DNA of 57,534 nucleotides from Prolixibacteraceae bacterium. GTDB taxonomy: Bacteria; Bacteroidota; Bacteroidia; Bacteroidales; Prolixibacteraceae. The notes beneath the pieces are model-generated. The model searched no databases. It saw nothing but the letters and a program-made list of their open reading frames with translations, and was not told the origin of the DNA. How positions within the stretch are numbered: the stretch's first letter is position 1; each line of letters starts with the position of its first letter. This document shows, piece after piece, positions 1 to 5,640 of this stretch. The stretch is from contig JABGRN010000024.1 in assembly GCA_018648265.1 (NCBI GenBank), positions 1-57,534 on the forward strand, written 5' to 3'. Both the position numbers and the translations under genes were made by a program.

Positions 1-2089
1 GGATTGCAGTTAATTCCAATTCACGGAGTTTCCTGATTTGAGCTTCTTTTCGGAATCGCTGCCGAACCCGCCATTTCCAAATAAATAAACTTGTAATTAA
101 TAGTAAAATAATTCCACCGAGAATAAAAATAATTAGCTCGGAATTCGATTTACTTTCTTTTAACTCTCTCGTATATCTCACAACTCTAAACCCACTATAT
201 TCCAGATTAGAATCATCGATAATTTCATAATTCATAGAATCTCCAAAATTTTCCCATTCCCTAAGAATTGCTTTTTTTGCAGGTGCGGGTTGCATCCTAT
301 TTAATATAAATGGAGAAAACCACTCTGGCGCATTGGTATTCAGATATGCAATTGTATCCTTTGGAACTTCGTATAGTACATTTCTGATTCTAACTTTATT
401 CTTATAGTTTTTTATCTCCTTCATGTAATCTGCTAAAATTCGAAAAGTTATTTCCGAAGGCAAAACAAAATCAGAATTGCCTTCAATTTTATTCTTTTTA
501 TTCATCCAAATACAAAAGAACTCGGCACCTTTTAGTGGAATTCCAACAACCGGATAGTTATCAAATTTTCTATTATTTAAATATTCAATAATATTAATTT
601 CACGAATATTACCTTCAAAAAAAGCATCAACAGCCAGGCTCGAATCAATTAAACTTTTCGCAATTTCTGAGTAGATTTCAACATTTGTCTTTTTTTCGAA
701 CATTTTTGATGTTGAACTGAATTCCATTTTTTCCCACTGAATTATCTTCTTGGGATTAGAAATAATATCATCTGCAAATTTTCGATATTCTTTATTTGTT
801 ATCTCATTGCTAATCCAAAAGCTATCTGAGGCTATTGTTGTCGATCTTAGTTCAACGTTCATTTTCACGGCTCTTCGAGGAACAAAAAACAGATTGTTCT
901 TAATTCTAATGTTTTTATAAGACAGCTCTTTAAATCGTTCTAAATCAGATTTGCTGGCCGATAAAATCAAATTTAAATGTTCATTCTCGGTCAGTTCAGA
1001 AAAACGATTACTAACATCTAAATTAAGACTCATTCTTTTTATTAAACTGTGCCTTAAAGTTGTATTGGCACTTTCTCCCATATACAGAGAAGGAACTTCT
1101 TTGCTACCGGAATTTACAAGATGAAACATATTTTTACCAGGAAGAAGGAAAATGTTTTCTCTCCCTGTGGGTAAACGCACATCTACTTCCTGTGGATTTT
1201 CTATTGATAATTCAAAGGAAAAACTCCCATCTTTTTCAATATCTGCCACTTTAGCAAAAGATTCATTGTTTTGTTTGTTTCTGTAAATGAGAGATACGAA
1301 TGTTCCAATCTGTGGATTAAATTTTTTAATTATCCCACTATAAATAACAATATTAGATTCCGCTGGAAATGGTTTTTTTTGTTTTTCTTCAAGAGATTTA
1401 AAATATACTTTAGAAAGTTTTGAATAGTGTTCATAAGGTTCTCCCCTGAGGCACAAAAAATAATTATTCTCATTGTCAGCCCGGCACATCAAAGTTTTTT
1501 GAATATTGCCATTTTTAATAATTAATTCGTAAATATTTTCATTTTTTTGAATTGATCCGTAATTAAATATTTTTTTATCAAAAACTGCCAGAGAATCTAA
1601 TAAACTAAAAGTCCATTTGCCATTCTCGGTTGAAAACCAATTGCCAAGCAACTCTTTGGGTATAATCGATTGATTGGAATTTTCGATTAGTTCAATATCA
1701 AAAAATTTCCATCCTGAAGGATGTGGGTCAATATAATTTATCTCTTTTACTAAAGGGTCAATCGGAGGAAATACAATTCTATAAGTTAATCCATTTTCGT
1801 CGGGTACTATAATCGATTCCCAAAATTCATACTCTAAACATTTAACAGCTTTAAGTTTTGTTGTGTCTCCGCTAATTTGAATATAGTCGTTTTTGTTAAT
1901 AATATTATTAGCTCCAACCCGTAACTTTACATTAACAGTTAAAATAGTTGCTGCATCAGTCAATTCAATATTCGTAATAAAAACATCAGGACGAGAACTA
2001 ATCCCAACTTTAGGGTTTTCAATTATTTTCTGTGCAGTGTTAGTATATGCCAGAAACAGAAATAGAATTATAAAAAGATGAACTTTCAT
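1..2089 (-). CDS. Membrane sensor protein with FGE-like segment, probable LytS-type histidine kinase (partial, C-terminus beyond left edge)
   Basis: This reading frame is open from an ATG at 2089 to the left edge (696 codons seen). A signal peptide (MKVHLFIILFLFLAYTNTAQ) is followed by ~345 residues clearly homologous to the neighbouring gene at 2426-4753 (shared QKIIxNP, IIPxELxGxWFS, CRAD, FHLxNS and MGESA blocks). Residues ~424-560 resemble the formylglycine-generating-enzyme/GldK fold: FWISNEITNKEYRKF, YPVVGIPLKGAEFFCIW and a degenerate LPSEITFRI in place of LPTEAEWEY. A single membrane helix lies at ~652-673. The last visible residues (RKEAQIRKLRELELTA) look like the linker that precedes the histidine-containing block of LytS/YehU-type kinases, so the unseen C-terminus is probably a kinase. 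The FGE-like part is read from motif spacing; the kinase is inferred. A LytTR-like double operator lies 58 bases upstream. Confidence 0.7.
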   Translation of the reverse strand, partial: MKVHLFIILFLFLAYTNTAQKIIENPKVGISSRPDVFITNIELTDAATILTVNVKLRVGANNIINKNDYIQISGDTTKLKAVKCLEYEFWESIIVPDENGLTYRIVFPPIDPLVKEINYIDPHPSGWKFFDIELIENSNQSIIPKELLGNWFSTENGKWTFSLLDSLAVFDKKIFNYGSIQKNENIYELIIKNGNIQKTLMCRADNENNYFLCLRGEPYEHYSKLSKVYFKSLEEKQKKPFPAESNIVIYSGIIKKFNPQIGTFVSLIYRNKQNNESFAKVADIEKDGSFSFELSIENPQEVDVRLPTGRENIFLLPGKNMFHLVNSGSKEVPSLYMGESANTTLRHSLIKRMSLNLDVSNRFSELTENEHLNLILSASKSDLERFKELSYKNIRIKNNLFFVPRRAVKMNVELRSTTIASDSFWISNEITNKEYRKFADDIISNPKKIIQWEKMEFSSTSKMFEKKTNVEIYSEIAKSLIDSSLAVDAFFEGNIREINIIEYLNNRKFDNYPVVGIPLKGAEFFCIWMNKKNKIEGNSDFVLPSEITFRILADYMKEIKNYKNKVRIRNVLYEVPKDTIAYLNTNAPEWFSPFILNRMQPAPAKKAILREWENFGDSMNYEIIDDSNLEYSGFRVVRYTRELKESKSNSELIIFILGGIILLLITSLFIWKWRVRQRFRKEAQIRKLRELELTAI

Positions 2090-2109
2090 ATCAGTTGAAA
2101 TTGGTTACC

Positions 2110-2136
2110 CAAAGTTGGCTGATTAAATCGACTTAA
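2110..2136 (-). promoter_or_regulatory. Putative promoter of the sensor gene (weak -7 element CAACTTTG)
   Basis: On the minus strand TTT-N19-CAACTTTG matches the Bacteroidota pattern TTG-N17-23-TAnnTTTG except for the first base of the -7 box and the last base of the -33 box. The same element sits at the same distance (42 bases) from the double operator in front of the paralogue at 4753. The off-consensus boxes suggest a promoter that needs an activator. Start of transcription is inferred at about 2103. Confidence 0.5.
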
Positions 2137-2147
2137 AAAAGAGGCAT

Positions 2148-2180
2148 TTATTAAACGGTGGATTTGACTTATTAAACGGT
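2148..2180 (-). promoter_or_regulatory. Double operator, 21-bp period (LytTR-like)
   Basis: Two copies of ACCGTTTAATAA (minus strand; plus 2148-2159 and 2169-2180) are exactly 21 bp apart, two helical turns. The 9-mer ACCGTTTAA followed by a 12-bp spacer fits the published LytTR-regulator site, two direct repeats of [TA][AC][CA]GTTN[AG][TG] separated by 12-13 bp, with one mismatch in the last position. It lies directly upstream of the -33 region of the sensor gene. The same site recurs at 4825-4858. Confidence 0.65.
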
Positions 2181-2217
2181 AAAATATATTGATTAGTGAT
2201 TAATTATTATTGATTAT

Positions 2218-2398
2218 TTCATGCAAAGGGCGCTAAGGTTTTCGCAGAGAACGCAAAAGTTTTCTTTGCGAGCTTCATACTACTTTGCGCCTTTGCGTGA
2301 TCCTTTCTATATTATTATTTCACGCAAAGGACGCCAAGGTTTTCGCAGAGAGCGCAAAATTGTTCTGCGAACTTCGCGCTACTTTGCGCCTTTGCGAG
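2218..2398. repeat. Pair of dispersed imperfect-palindromic repeats (copies A and B)
   Basis: Two ~80-bp copies (about 2218-2299 and 2329-2398) share the blocks GCAAAGG-CGC-AAGGTTTTCGC, AGAG-GCAAAA, GCGA-CTTC and CTACTTTGCGCCTTTGCG. The ends CGCAAAGG and CCTTTGCG are inverted, so each copy can fold into a hairpin. Two more copies lie at 4888-5071. They fill the 336-base gap between the two paralogous genes together with the operator. Elements of this look occur between genes in many Bacteroidota; here they may also serve as the 3' hairpin of the gene ending at 2426. Confidence 0.75.
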
Positions 2399-2425
2399 AA
2401 ACTTCTTTTTTTGAAACTTATATTT

Positions 2426-4753
2426 TCATTTGTTTACCTGCTCCATTAAAACTTTTTTTAATTTTTTGTTTTCAAGCGGCATCATGTGTGCATTCACAAC
2501 CTTCCCGTTTTTATCTAACAAAGCATAATGTGGAATACCATAAATATTGAACTTTTGAGTCAGGTAGTTCCATTCATCAGCCGAAACCTTAAAATGTTCG
2601 CCTTTTATATTGGGAATTGCTTTTTTATAATCTTTCTCCGGAGAAGTGTTATTGGTAATATAAACAAAAACAATGTCTTCATTTTTTAATTCCTCCTTAA
2701 GCGGTTTTATTCTTTCTATTCCGGTTTTGCAAGGCCCACACCAGGTTGCCCAAAAATCGACAAAAACTACTTTCCCGCGAAAATCTTTTATGATTGAATG
2801 AAACAGTTTATCGCCCTCTGTTTTTAAAATTGGCTCTTCTTTTAAGTTCTGAATTTCAATTTTTGCTTTCTTTTGGTAGTATTCCGAAATTAAATATTCT
2901 TTTAATGCTTCGTTTTTAATAGCTGCTTTTGTTTCGCTAAACTCATCTTCCATCACTACTTCCGACCTCGATTGGTTCGACAGAAAATCTTTGACAAGCG
3001 CAATTTCAACAAGTTTTTTGCCCGGCTCTCCAAATATTAGTTCACTGTTTTTACGTGCATTATTTTTGTAATAATTATTTAAAAGTACTTCAAATTCTTT
3101 TGTGAATTTTTCGCGAAAATCTTTTAAAACCTTTCCATACGATTTGTTGAAATTGTTGCGTGCTTCATCGCTATACTTTTCAACAAGGTTCATTTTTACA
3201 AAGTCCAGCATATCCTTTTCTTCTCCTGATATTTGTTTCCCTTGCTTTAATATATCAGACCCCAAAACCGTAAGTAAATAATAATACGATCCTTGTGGAT
3301 ATTCAATACTGAAATTTTTTAAGGCCTGTATTAACCTGAAATATTCGCCACTAATAAATGCCAATTCTTTGTTTACAGGAACGTCACTAATTTTCTTTAA
3401 TAAATCAACATTTATATCTTTTGGAACAAAGGATTTTTGCTCTTCCTTTTTTAAGTTTCGGTTGGCATAAAAATTTGACATTCGGGCGTTCTGATTAAAA
3501 TTAATCAAATTGCTGGCTGCCCTGAATTGAATATCCAATAACCTGATTTGAAATACTTTATTGTTGCCTGAATTTCCTTTTAGTGTTTCCTGCAGTTTTT
3601 GAAATTGTTCTTTTTTTGCAGACAAAACATAGTTTACATATTCTTCTGGGGTCATTGAATTTACACCCTTAACAAAGTTCATTTGGTTGGGGGCAATTGA
3701 TTGAGTTGCTTTTAAGCCAATATTTACAAGCGCCGATTCACCCATAAAAAGTGAATTTGTTTCTGGAATTTTTGAATTTATTAAATGAAATACACTCTTT
3801 CCCGGTTCAAAAAATATTCGTTCGTTGCCCGATGGCAAACTAACGCTTAGTTCCTGTGGGAAATCCAAAATAAATTTTGTTGTAAATGTTCCGTTTTTAT
3901 CAATTTTAATCAAGTGGCTTTCTTGTTGATTGTTCATTGGATTAAAAAACCGGATCATCCCGGTTGACTTTCCCAATCTTTCTGTAAATCCATTTATAAC
4001 GCCACTGTATTTCACCTTTTCCTGATTTAACACACGACCTTCAAAAGCTTCTTCATCAAACACTTTTGATTGTAATTTGGCCTTATTCGAGTATCTGATT
4101 AATGTTCGGTTGTTGGTGCGCATAAAACAAAAATCCTTTTCATCTGCCCGGCAATAAAGAATTTCTGTTTCTTCGCCGTTTTTTAGTTTTACTTCCGTAA
4201 CATTTCCCTCTGGTTTTGCCGAAACGTATTCCCATGTTTTATTTTCGTAAACCGCAATTTTTTCTAAAAAACTAAAAGTCCACTGCCCGTTGTTTGGCGA
4301 AAACCAGTGTCCTGCCAATTCCTCTGGAATTATCGATGAATAAGGTGATTTATTAATTACAATGGCGTAAATCATCCAGGGTTGAGAAGTAGGCTCACCG
4401 AAATCGATTTTTTCAGTTTTTGGATCGATGGAAGGAAAATACAATGTATATTTCAAACCACCTTCCGGTACTGTAATCCACCCATTCACCGGTTCGGGTG
4501 CATCCTTTCGAATCATAAACAATGAATCGGGTTGACCAACTATTTGAATGTAACTTTTATTGGCAATTCCGAAAGTTCTACCGGGTTCCAGATTTATTTT
4601 AAATGTCAGAGCAGTTTCGGTACTGGTTAACTCAATCTTCGTAATAGTTACGGCAGTAGTTCCTATCCCATAATCAGGATTATCAATTATTTTCTGCGCG
4701 TCAACAAAAAATACCAGGCAAACCAAAACAAAGGTTCCAATTAATTTTTTCAT
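2426..4753 (-). CDS. Exported TlpA-type thioredoxin-fold protein with paralogous N-terminal module
   Basis: 775 residues with a signal peptide (first 19-20 residues). Residues 1 to ~345 are homologous to the adjacent sensor gene. The middle (~360-650) is largely helical and not recognised. The C-terminal ~118 residues are a TlpA/ResA-type thioredoxin domain: VVFVDFWATWCGPC with the redox pair at 671-675 and the cis-proline in YGIPHY (P741). Family knowledge places such proteins in the periplasm or at the outer face, reducing or exchanging protein disulfides. The N-terminal part with its block near residues 250-330 resembles the beta-sandwich that precedes many Bacteroidota TlpA domains. Promoter and double operator match those of the sensor gene, so the two are probably co-regulated. 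The substrate is unknown. Confidence 0.8.
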   Translation of the reverse strand: MKKLIGTFVLVCLVFFVDAQKIIDNPDYGIGTTAVTITKIELTSTETALTFKINLEPGRTFGIANKSYIQIVGQPDSLFMIRKDAPEPVNGWITVPEGGLKYTLYFPSIDPKTEKIDFGEPTSQPWMIYAIVINKSPYSSIIPEELAGHWFSPNNGQWTFSFLEKIAVYENKTWEYVSAKPEGNVTEVKLKNGEETEILYCRADEKDFCFMRTNNRTLIRYSNKAKLQSKVFDEEAFEGRVLNQEKVKYSGVINGFTERLGKSTGMIRFFNPMNNQQESHLIKIDKNGTFTTKFILDFPQELSVSLPSGNERIFFEPGKSVFHLINSKIPETNSLFMGESALVNIGLKATQSIAPNQMNFVKGVNSMTPEEYVNYVLSAKKEQFQKLQETLKGNSGNNKVFQIRLLDIQFRAASNLINFNQNARMSNFYANRNLKKEEQKSFVPKDINVDLLKKISDVPVNKELAFISGEYFRLIQALKNFSIEYPQGSYYYLLTVLGSDILKQGKQISGEEKDMLDFVKMNLVEKYSDEARNNFNKSYGKVLKDFREKFTKEFEVLLNNYYKNNARKNSELIFGEPGKKLVEIALVKDFLSNQSRSEVVMEDEFSETKAAIKNEALKEYLISEYYQKKAKIEIQNLKEEPILKTEGDKLFHSIIKDFRGKVVFVDFWATWCGPCKTGIERIKPLKEELKNEDIVFVYITNNTSPEKDYKKAIPNIKGEHFKVSADEWNYLTQKFNIYGIPHYALLDKNGKVVNAHMMPLENKKLKKVLMEQVNK

Positions 4754-4787: not shown

Positions 4788-4817
4788 TAAAGTTGGGCGA
4801 ATTATCCGGGAAATCAA
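4788..4817 (-). promoter_or_regulatory. Putative promoter of the TlpA-type gene (TTG-N19-CAACTTTA)
   Basis: On the minus strand TTG is followed after 19 bases by CAACTTTA, close to TAnnTTTG. It lies 42 bases from the proximal operator repeat, exactly as in the paralogue's upstream region. Transcription would begin near 4781, giving a leader of about 28 bases. Confidence 0.55.
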
Positions 4818-4824
4818 AGGCCCA

Positions 4825-4858: not shown

Positions 4859-4887
4859 AGATTAATTGATTAGTTATTATCAATTAT

Positions 4888-5071
4888 CTCACGCAAAGAA
4901 CGCCAGGGTTTTCGCAGAGAACACAAAATTGTTCTGCGAGCTTCGCGCTACTTTGCTGCTTTGCGAGAACATTTTCTATTTAATATTTCACGTAAAGAAC
5001 GCGAAGGTTTTCGAAATGGAAGCAAAAATATCCTTAGCGAGCTTAACGTTTCTTTGTATGTCTTTGCGTGA
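4888..5071. repeat. Pair of dispersed imperfect-palindromic repeats (copies C and D)
   Basis: Two copies (about 4888-4968 and 4986-5071) of the same ~80-bp element found at 2218-2398, with blocks such as CACGCAAAGAACGCC, GGTTTTCGCAGAGAACAC and CTTTGCGAG. Copy D is the most diverged. Together with the operator they occupy the 356-base gap before the next gene, so the whole upstream region of the two paralogues is duplicated. Confidence 0.7.
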
Positions 5072-5109: not shown

Positions 5110-5640
5110 CTAATTGTTTTGGTGGCCTTTGTTTTTTAATTTTTTTATAATTGCCGGATTTAAATCGTGGCTGTTTGGCGAAACATAAGCGACTGATCCG
5201 TTGCTAATATCCAAAACATACGTAAATTCCTCTCTATCAGACATTTCTTTTATCGTAGAATTTATTTGTACATAAAGTGGTTGTAACAACTCCATATTTC
5301 TTCTTTGCAATTGTTGTTGTGCATCTTGATTGTACTCCTGAATTTTTTGTGCCAAATCAATTAATTCTTTCTCTTTCGATGACCTCACAAAATCAGAATA
5401 ACCCGACTTTTCTTTTTCAAACAATCCCAATTTTACGTCGTGTTCTTCTATCATTTCACTATATAATTTTTCCATCTCTTTGGTCTCATTTTCCAAAATA
5501 ATTTTAATACTATCTGACGCCGGATGTTTTTGCACCAGTTCCTGAATATTTACATGACCGATTTTTAGCCCACTCTGGGCGTTTACAAATTGCCCGATAA
5601 CAAGAAACAGTAGTAAAATTGCAAGTTGTTTTATTTTCAT
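5110..5640 (-). CDS. OmpH/Skp-family periplasmic chaperone
   Basis: 176 residues with a signal peptide ending near residue 21 (FVNAQ). The mature part starts with LKIGHVNIQELVQKHP, the typical Skp/OmpH opening (strand, then helix), followed by a long charged helical segment (~35-145) and a short C-terminal strand region (FTYVLDISNGSVAYV). Family members form trimers that hold unfolded outer-membrane proteins during transit through the periplasm. It is transcribed alone, upstream of the duplicated repeat region. There is no nearby bamA or lpxD, so it may be an accessory paralogue. Confidence 0.85.
   Translation of the reverse strand: MKIKQLAILLLFLVIGQFVNAQSGLKIGHVNIQELVQKHPASDSIKIILENETKEMEKLYSEMIEEHDVKLGLFEKEKSGYSDFVRSSKEKELIDLAQKIQEYNQDAQQQLQRRNMELLQPLYVQINSTIKEMSDREEFTYVLDISNGSVAYVSPNSHDLNPAIIKKLKNKGHQNN

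Follow-up and report, generated by a model that had tools for sequence, protein, structure and literature searches.

Two neighbouring genes in a Prolixibacteraceae genome, here called P0001 and P0002, encode exported proteins that begin alike and end differently, one in what appears to be a sensor and the other in a thioredoxin domain. This arrangement raises the question of whether a sensor and an enzyme that share a module also act within one regulatory system, as the initial annotation of the locus had suggested. The stretch analysed, hereafter the window, is the entire contig C6 of 57,534 bases, taken from a genome of 5.58 Mb in 164 contigs (Table 1).

Table 1. Features of the window, with positions counted from its first base
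Feature	Positions	Strand	Description
P0001	2-2089	minus	exported sensor protein, 696 aa, open at left contig edge; orthologue in two pieces, L056/L124
Shared N-module of P0001	1052-2089	minus	residues 1-346; signal peptide, parts without a name, and a DUF4369-like segment (265-328) under cut-off
FGE/GldK-like domain of P0001	170-889	minus	residues 401-640; single cysteine
Membrane helix of P0001	74-136	minus	~residues 652-672, by eye
Juxtamembrane stretch of P0001	2-73	minus	ends RELELTAI; in relatives runs into LytS kinase
LytTR-type tandem operator before P0001	2148-2180	minus	ACCGTTTAATAA-N9-ACCGTTTAATAA
Promoter-like elements before P0001	2110-2141	minus	CTTTT 2137-2141, 19 bases, CAACTTTG 2110-2117
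P0002	2426-4753	minus	exported TlpA/ResA-like protein, complete, 775 aa
Shared N-module of P0002	3719-4753	minus	residues 1-345
Thioredoxin domain of P0002	2429-2848	minus	residues 636-775, WCGPC
LytTR-type tandem operator before P0002	4826-4858	minus	ACCGTTTAATAA-N9-ACCGTTTAATAA
Promoter-like elements before P0002	4788-4819	minus	CTTTG 4815-4819, 19 bases, CAACTTTA 4788-4795
OmpH/Skp-like gene	5110-5640	minus	PF03938 E 2.9e-24; often beside related kinases

A shared N-terminal module with two different outputs

The description of P0001 and P0002 as tandem paralogues with a common N-terminal part is borne out by BLASTP, which aligns residues 1 to ~390 with 134/390 identities (34%), 3 gaps and an E-value of 3e-65; the blocks QKII, GESA and WTFS are present in both proteins alike. 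For this N-terminal module (N-module), searches of the own genome with P0001 retrieve P0002 only, and vice versa, and because each retrieves only the other, the likeness goes beyond chance. P0002 also found ten further places, matched by its thioredoxin end alone. A contig scan with P0001 alone confirmed no relative. The profile of the N-module had no match among solved structures at E-values up to 1, and the DUF4369 model (PF14289, gathering cut-off 25 bits) gave 19.4 bits for P0001 and 23.0 for P0004, regions that we call DUF4369-like only. The possibility that the similarity reflects a common beta-sandwich found in unrelated proteins applies to a part of the module, since its first ~145 residues match alone elsewhere. 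These solitary matches are short open frames (~140-260 aa) in other Bacteroidia, for example G141:C120 and G545:C126; the G-labelled comparison set has a single genome for each species and was searched with a loose initial screen. The first part is perhaps a free-standing domain, to which scans of longer proteins gave no Pfam name.

The output of P0002 is of the TlpA type, as had been claimed: its CxxC-bearing thioredoxin domain matches Redoxin/thioredoxin PF08534 at E 2e-15 and solved relatives from E 6.8e-16, and the WCGPC motif and signal peptide, both read by eye, give the exported CxxC thioredoxin fold of TlpA and ResA. With 53.2 bits against a cut-off of 170 for NF002854, 42.7 against 230 for NF047696 and 33.3 against 123 for TIGR00385, its sequence places P0002 as a relative, not an equivalog, of ResA, TlpA or DsbE. 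P0002 thus resembles the TlpA/ResA reductases with a DUF4369-like domain in export, fold and active-site motif, and differs from them in an extra N-terminal module of ~220 residues that it has in common with a kinase.

For P0001, an FGE-like segment, a membrane helix and a LytS kinase had been proposed, and the first two can be recognised within the window. The FGE-sulfatase match (E 0.0034) and the GldK match (E 5e-11, 42.6 bits against a model cut-off of 350) both lie under curated cut-offs, and the helix and the juxtamembrane stretch after it were placed by eye. Formylglycine-generating enzymes use a catalytic cysteine pair; P0001 has a single cysteine in residues 401-640 (C526), and its orthologue likewise has one, in a different place. 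The domain resembles FGE-sulfatase and GldK/PorK-like proteins but lacks the cysteine pair and is fused to a kinase stem, and it is probably non-catalytic.

A probable kinase half beyond the contig end

The kinase domain itself falls outside the window because the left edge of the window is the contig end; indeed, PF06580 (LytS-type kinase) is absent from the 696 aa of P0001 up to this point. The LytS-type output is seen instead in the orthologue from Mariniphaga sp. bin.676 (L056/L124), which matches P0001 in two pieces (35% and 40% identity) and ends in a LytS kinase (PF06580 E 3.7e-23). An apparent frameshift, real or an assembly error, splits this gene at L056 4922-4934. In the same genome, the kinase orthologue is followed by a TlpA gene and then by a regulator ORF that runs off the contig. 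The labels of a redox arm for P0002 and a signalling arm for P0001 fit. Other parts of the initial annotation, namely recognition by the shared module, a redox or damage signal and repair, found no support here.

At the right edge of contig C118 of the own genome, 98 residues match the end of the Mariniphaga sp. bin.676 kinase with 67% identity, and this kinase end is followed by a GxxExxY gene and a regulator with receiver and LytTR domains. The C118 regulator is 74% identical to P0006, the regulator that accompanies the TlpA and kinase genes of Mariniphaga sp. KA03; P0006 has 12 matches in the own genome, of which the next two reach 36 and 40%. A match on contig C24 was rejected as a carrier of the kinase half, as it does not lie at a contig edge. 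We infer that C118 continues P0001, with ~93 residues missing between the contig ends as counted on the orthologue, and, across this gap, that the C118 regulator is linked to the window genes. The GxxExxY gene (TIGR04256; L078 10820-11278) was not noticed at related loci and may have been inserted between the kinase end and the regulator.

A putative tandem operator before both genes

At 63-105 bases upstream of both P0001 and P0002 lies the same pair of direct repeats, a putative common operator that is new here. Perfect copies of its eight-base halves at a 21-base period occur only twice in the 5.58 Mb of the own genome, and these are the sites at P0001 and P0002. The weight of the operator evidence is in these perfect copies and in their conservation: when 2 mismatches are allowed, 5 places in the own genome match against 28 for the reversed pattern (12 and 16), so this loose count is no evidence, and at 3 mismatches in the window the two sites are not significant, as 29 of 100 shuffles reach 2.

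Named relatives belong to the Prolixibacteraceae and include Mariniphaga, Tangfeifania and Gaoshiqia. In 1.02 Mb of fetched loci together with the window, the 8-base halves spaced by 13 free bases were matched 21 times with at most 2 mismatches, and 16 of these matches precede a related kinase or TlpA gene. By comparison, the reversed pattern gave 2 matches, and spacings of 12 and 14 free bases gave 1 and 0; since the loci were fetched for their kinase and TlpA genes, this count shows placement and not frequency. Across 120 genomes, including the own, a longer pattern with at most 1 mismatch was matched 25 times, in 19 genomes (reversed control 6). Nineteen of the 25 precede a long kinase, an FGE kinase or a TlpA gene, the window's two included; one precedes an 827-aa ORF at the same locus, and five lie elsewhere. 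This ORF, whose start looks carboxypeptidase-regulatory/outer-membrane-like by eye, follows an operator with 2 mismatches (L096 7095-7123) at a distance of 265 bases and is a possible third target.

Downstream of the repeats, 17 aligned sites mostly show CTTTT and, 19 bases on, a CAA.TTTG box, with the spacing between operator and promoter largely kept; these 17 come from the 21 sites, the other four being those of L097 and L149 and two opposite-strand sites of L122. Exceptions are an L122 site without the TTTG box and the window's TlpA gene, which has CAACTTTA. We take these elements to fit the -33/-7 promoters of Bacteroidota. The window sites agree with the LytTR repeats described in an excerpt of PMC4847170, which are 9-11 nt long, 11-13 nt apart and upstream of their targets, and an excerpt of PMC6193735 places such repeats, in LytTR regulatory systems, for the most part 10 bp upstream of the -35 element.

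A probable autoregulated system

Because the operator is shared, recurs before the genes of relatives and is followed by a largely conserved promoter, the pair is probably one autoregulated system, and we consider it likely that P0001 and P0002 are the sensor and the effector of a single LytS/LytTR two-component system of the envelope. The annotated notion of one system is supported by the common operator and the gene neighbourhood. Homology, domain order, the repeats with their conservation and position, and neighbourhood are read from the sequence, whereas we infer the contig junction, what the module does, what signal is involved, and that the regulator binds and activates. P0001 would be a membrane kinase whose kinase half lies across the contig break and whose exported part consists of the shared module and the FGE-like domain; P0002 would be a thiol-disulfide reductase that is exported, begins with that module and carries a CxxC motif. 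The C118 LytTR regulator would bind the tandem ACCGTTTAATAA repeats just upstream of both promoters, so that one signal would raise sensor and reductase together. The two most likely form one regulon with feedback. The shared module most likely serves as a dock that would bring both proteins to the same envelope partner, or to each other.

The proposed system has a PF06580 kinase (in the orthologue), a LytTR regulator (on C118) and tandem repeats close to the promoter, as in LytS/LytTR systems, but its exported sensor is built from TlpA-type and FGE-like parts, and a thiol reductase gene carries the same repeats. No description of such a gene pair or sensor was found in the open-licence literature, as represented in part by titles and the beginnings of abstracts; in the available part of PMC10434189 the relevant terms occur, but in separate gene lists. 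If the proposal is true, an envelope enzyme family has been turned into a two-component sensor while the working enzyme was kept under the same operator, and the locus offers a defined DNA site and few targets for direct tests of an apparently unstudied LytS/LytTR system of Bacteroidota.

Gene neighbourhood in relatives

The initial annotation also raised the question of whether the pair is conserved in related genomes. The fetched loci contain 44 genes with a full N-module and a TlpA end. A LytS kinase (HK) lies within 5 kb on their strand in 13 cases, a receiver-type regulator in 14 and both in 12 (11 loci), whereas 32 of the 44 are without this pair of neighbours; the window, which stops at a contig edge, is scored as lacking it. 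By chance, a kinase neighbourhood would be expected in a few per cent of cases by our estimate, with 17 PF06580 matches in the 5.58 Mb of the own genome, and none of the ten other places there that match the P0002 thioredoxin is within 5 kb of a PF06580 match, contig ends not being allowed for.

Viewed from the kinases, 25 of 30 related kinase genes have a receiver-type regulator within 5 kb on their own strand, 17 (the window included) have an Skp-like gene and 5 an N-module TlpA gene; three of the 30 are ORFs without an HK match in broken frames, and the window's contig-cut gene is one more such special case. The Skp-like neighbour makes outer-membrane protein folding a possible theme, although this is a guess.

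In five of the loci (L106, L126, L127, L128, L130), the kinase comes from another, distant lineage, on a long branch in the tree, and the gene order is HK-TlpA-regulator. Here a different repeat pair, GCAGTTTATC-N11-GCAGCTTGTC, recurs at the same 21-base period with 0-1 mismatches (reversed control 0; spacings one base off, 1 match each), a motif first spotted by eye in the loci where it was later counted. It lies 38-64 bases ahead of the HK gene in L106, L126, L127 and L128, and in L130 before a 386-aa ORF that precedes a short HK ORF; one more match in L130 has 3 mismatches.

Related kinases and a possible reading of redox state

Kinases of the same type in the fetched loci of relatives are ~1000 aa long, and in the kinase-domain tree the Mariniphaga FGE kinase and the C118 end nest within the long-kinase clade (nodes 99/91 and 95/88), with the C118 row filling 47% of the columns and a long-branch warning elsewhere in the tree. 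In hhalign comparisons, the DUF4369-like part of the long kinases' ectodomains matches the N part of TlpA (Prob 95.8, E 7.9e-9) and its middle part (Prob 95.9, E 6.4e-9). Column shuffles tested against the middle part, five in number, gave E 0.19 or worse. The thioredoxin-like segment before the membrane, in a first, shorter cut from 22 kinases, matched TlpA thioredoxins with Prob 24 and E 8e-4 (no better than 0.06 in 5 column shuffles), and in a wider cut from 26 kinases with Prob 95.0 and E 3.8e-8 (92.4 and 5.1e-7 without L149; best E of 20 column shuffles 0.011), a figure that is not blind because the bounds of the segment were changed after the weak first result. A profile search of the ectodomain against solved structures gave no match.

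One LytS kinase, at L149 2402-5377, has an ectodomain without CxxC that still matches ResA (NCBIfam, E 2.5e-10) and AhpC-TSA (E 1e-4), both under the model cut-offs; against the thioredoxin-like segment of the other kinases it alone gives Prob 26 and E 7e-4, and it is perhaps a bridge between TlpA proteins and the kinases with a dead TlpA.

The CxxC of a catalytic TlpA was found in 0 of the 27 distinct ectodomains (31 rows minus 4 duplicates; 4 from partial ORFs), and the complete ectodomain of the L122 kinase has no cysteine at all. With a DUF4369-like part and a thioredoxin-like segment but no CxxC, these kinases seem, as far as their sequences tell, to carry a redox-dead TlpA-like sensor, and a common thiol switch is unlikely, given the 0/27 and the cysteine-free case. 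One cysteine, set within a CN[DN] motif, does recur in 17 of the 27 and leaves room for thiol chemistry; by eye it is placed ~60-70 residues ahead of the dead thioredoxin segment, as in L082 4086-7127.

These counts bear on a different reading of the locus, in which the kinase would directly sense whether P0002 is oxidised or reduced, its ectodomain being docked by the thioredoxin domain in one of these two forms, in the manner proposed for PrrC and PrrB. PrrC is thioredoxin-like, and we know of no module common to PrrB and PrrC. The PrrB-PrrC-PrrA system of Rhodobacter likewise joins a kinase and a regulator to a third, membrane-localised protein thought to relay a redox signal to the kinase (excerpt of PMC3923116), but its proteins belong to other families. 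This precedent, the gene linkage with the common operator and the CN[DN] cysteine would all suit such a reading, but CxxC is missing throughout, a complete ectodomain without any cysteine exists, the kinases that stand beside the N-module TlpA genes of L122, L123 and L149 lack the CN[DN] cysteine, and most such kinases do without an N-module TlpA neighbour, as only 5 of 30 have one nearby. We regard direct redox reading as unlikely.

Returning to the proposed autoregulated sensor and effector, P0001 has the N-module and the FGE-like domain where its relatives have the thioredoxin-like segment. A tentative extension, to which we would give somewhat less than even weight, is that this Prolixibacteraceae kinase lineage senses the envelope through a retired, redox-dead TlpA, sometimes beside a co-regulated working one, and that the lineage of the window kept kinase, regulator and operator but swapped the dead thioredoxin for an FGE-like domain; in that case one envelope partner would be bound by sensor and enzyme either in competition or jointly.

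How the module came to a kinase

Within the fetched loci, the full N-module occurs together with a thioredoxin domain in 44 genes; four further genes have the module but no such domain, namely P0001, its Mariniphaga orthologue, one contig-cut ORF and one 429-aa ORF. In the N-module tree, the module of the Mariniphaga kinase clusters with that of the adjoining TlpA and not with P0001 (99/93; 94/94 in a repeat). The tree suggests two separate fusions, yet a single origin is not rejected (p-AU 0.08), and it is weak as to the number of fusions. This topology counts in favour of domain shuffling with no shared function, the N-module and promoter being copied between TlpA and kinase genes and the module acting as a stalk or folding aid. 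Local duplication would also yield similar promoters in the absence of any function, which is a point against one system, and the window's two promoters are indeed alike, by eye, upstream of the operator too; the first part of the module, moreover, matches alone in short open frames. On the other hand, the repeats are conserved across genera and the bases preceding them are not, TlpA and LytS/LytTR genes are also linked in the second kinase lineage (with long branches there in the tree), and the p-AU value leaves room for a single origin of the two kinase modules. Shuffling of this kind appears rather improbable to us. That P0001 is not a working kinase here, its gene being broken at the contig edge or the C118 end belonging to another gene, is very unlikely: the C6/C118 junction is unassembled, but the own genome holds one upstream half and one frontless downstream half of this kinase kind, both at contig edges, searches for a second upstream half in that genome returned none, and the C118 end falls inside the same kinase clade, though on 47% of the tree columns.

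Two minor observations concern tandem arrangement and repeats. In genome G328, three N-module/TlpA genes stand in tandem (L144 5111-12374), with no kinase match within 5 kb. Around P0001 and P0002, imperfect intergenic repeats of the ctttgcgcctttgcg kind lie next to both genes, at 2221-2410 and about 4880-5070 of the window, and by eye similar repeats surround the GxxExxY gene on C118 (L063); a search with 1 mismatch gave 3 matches in the window, all within 2221-2410.
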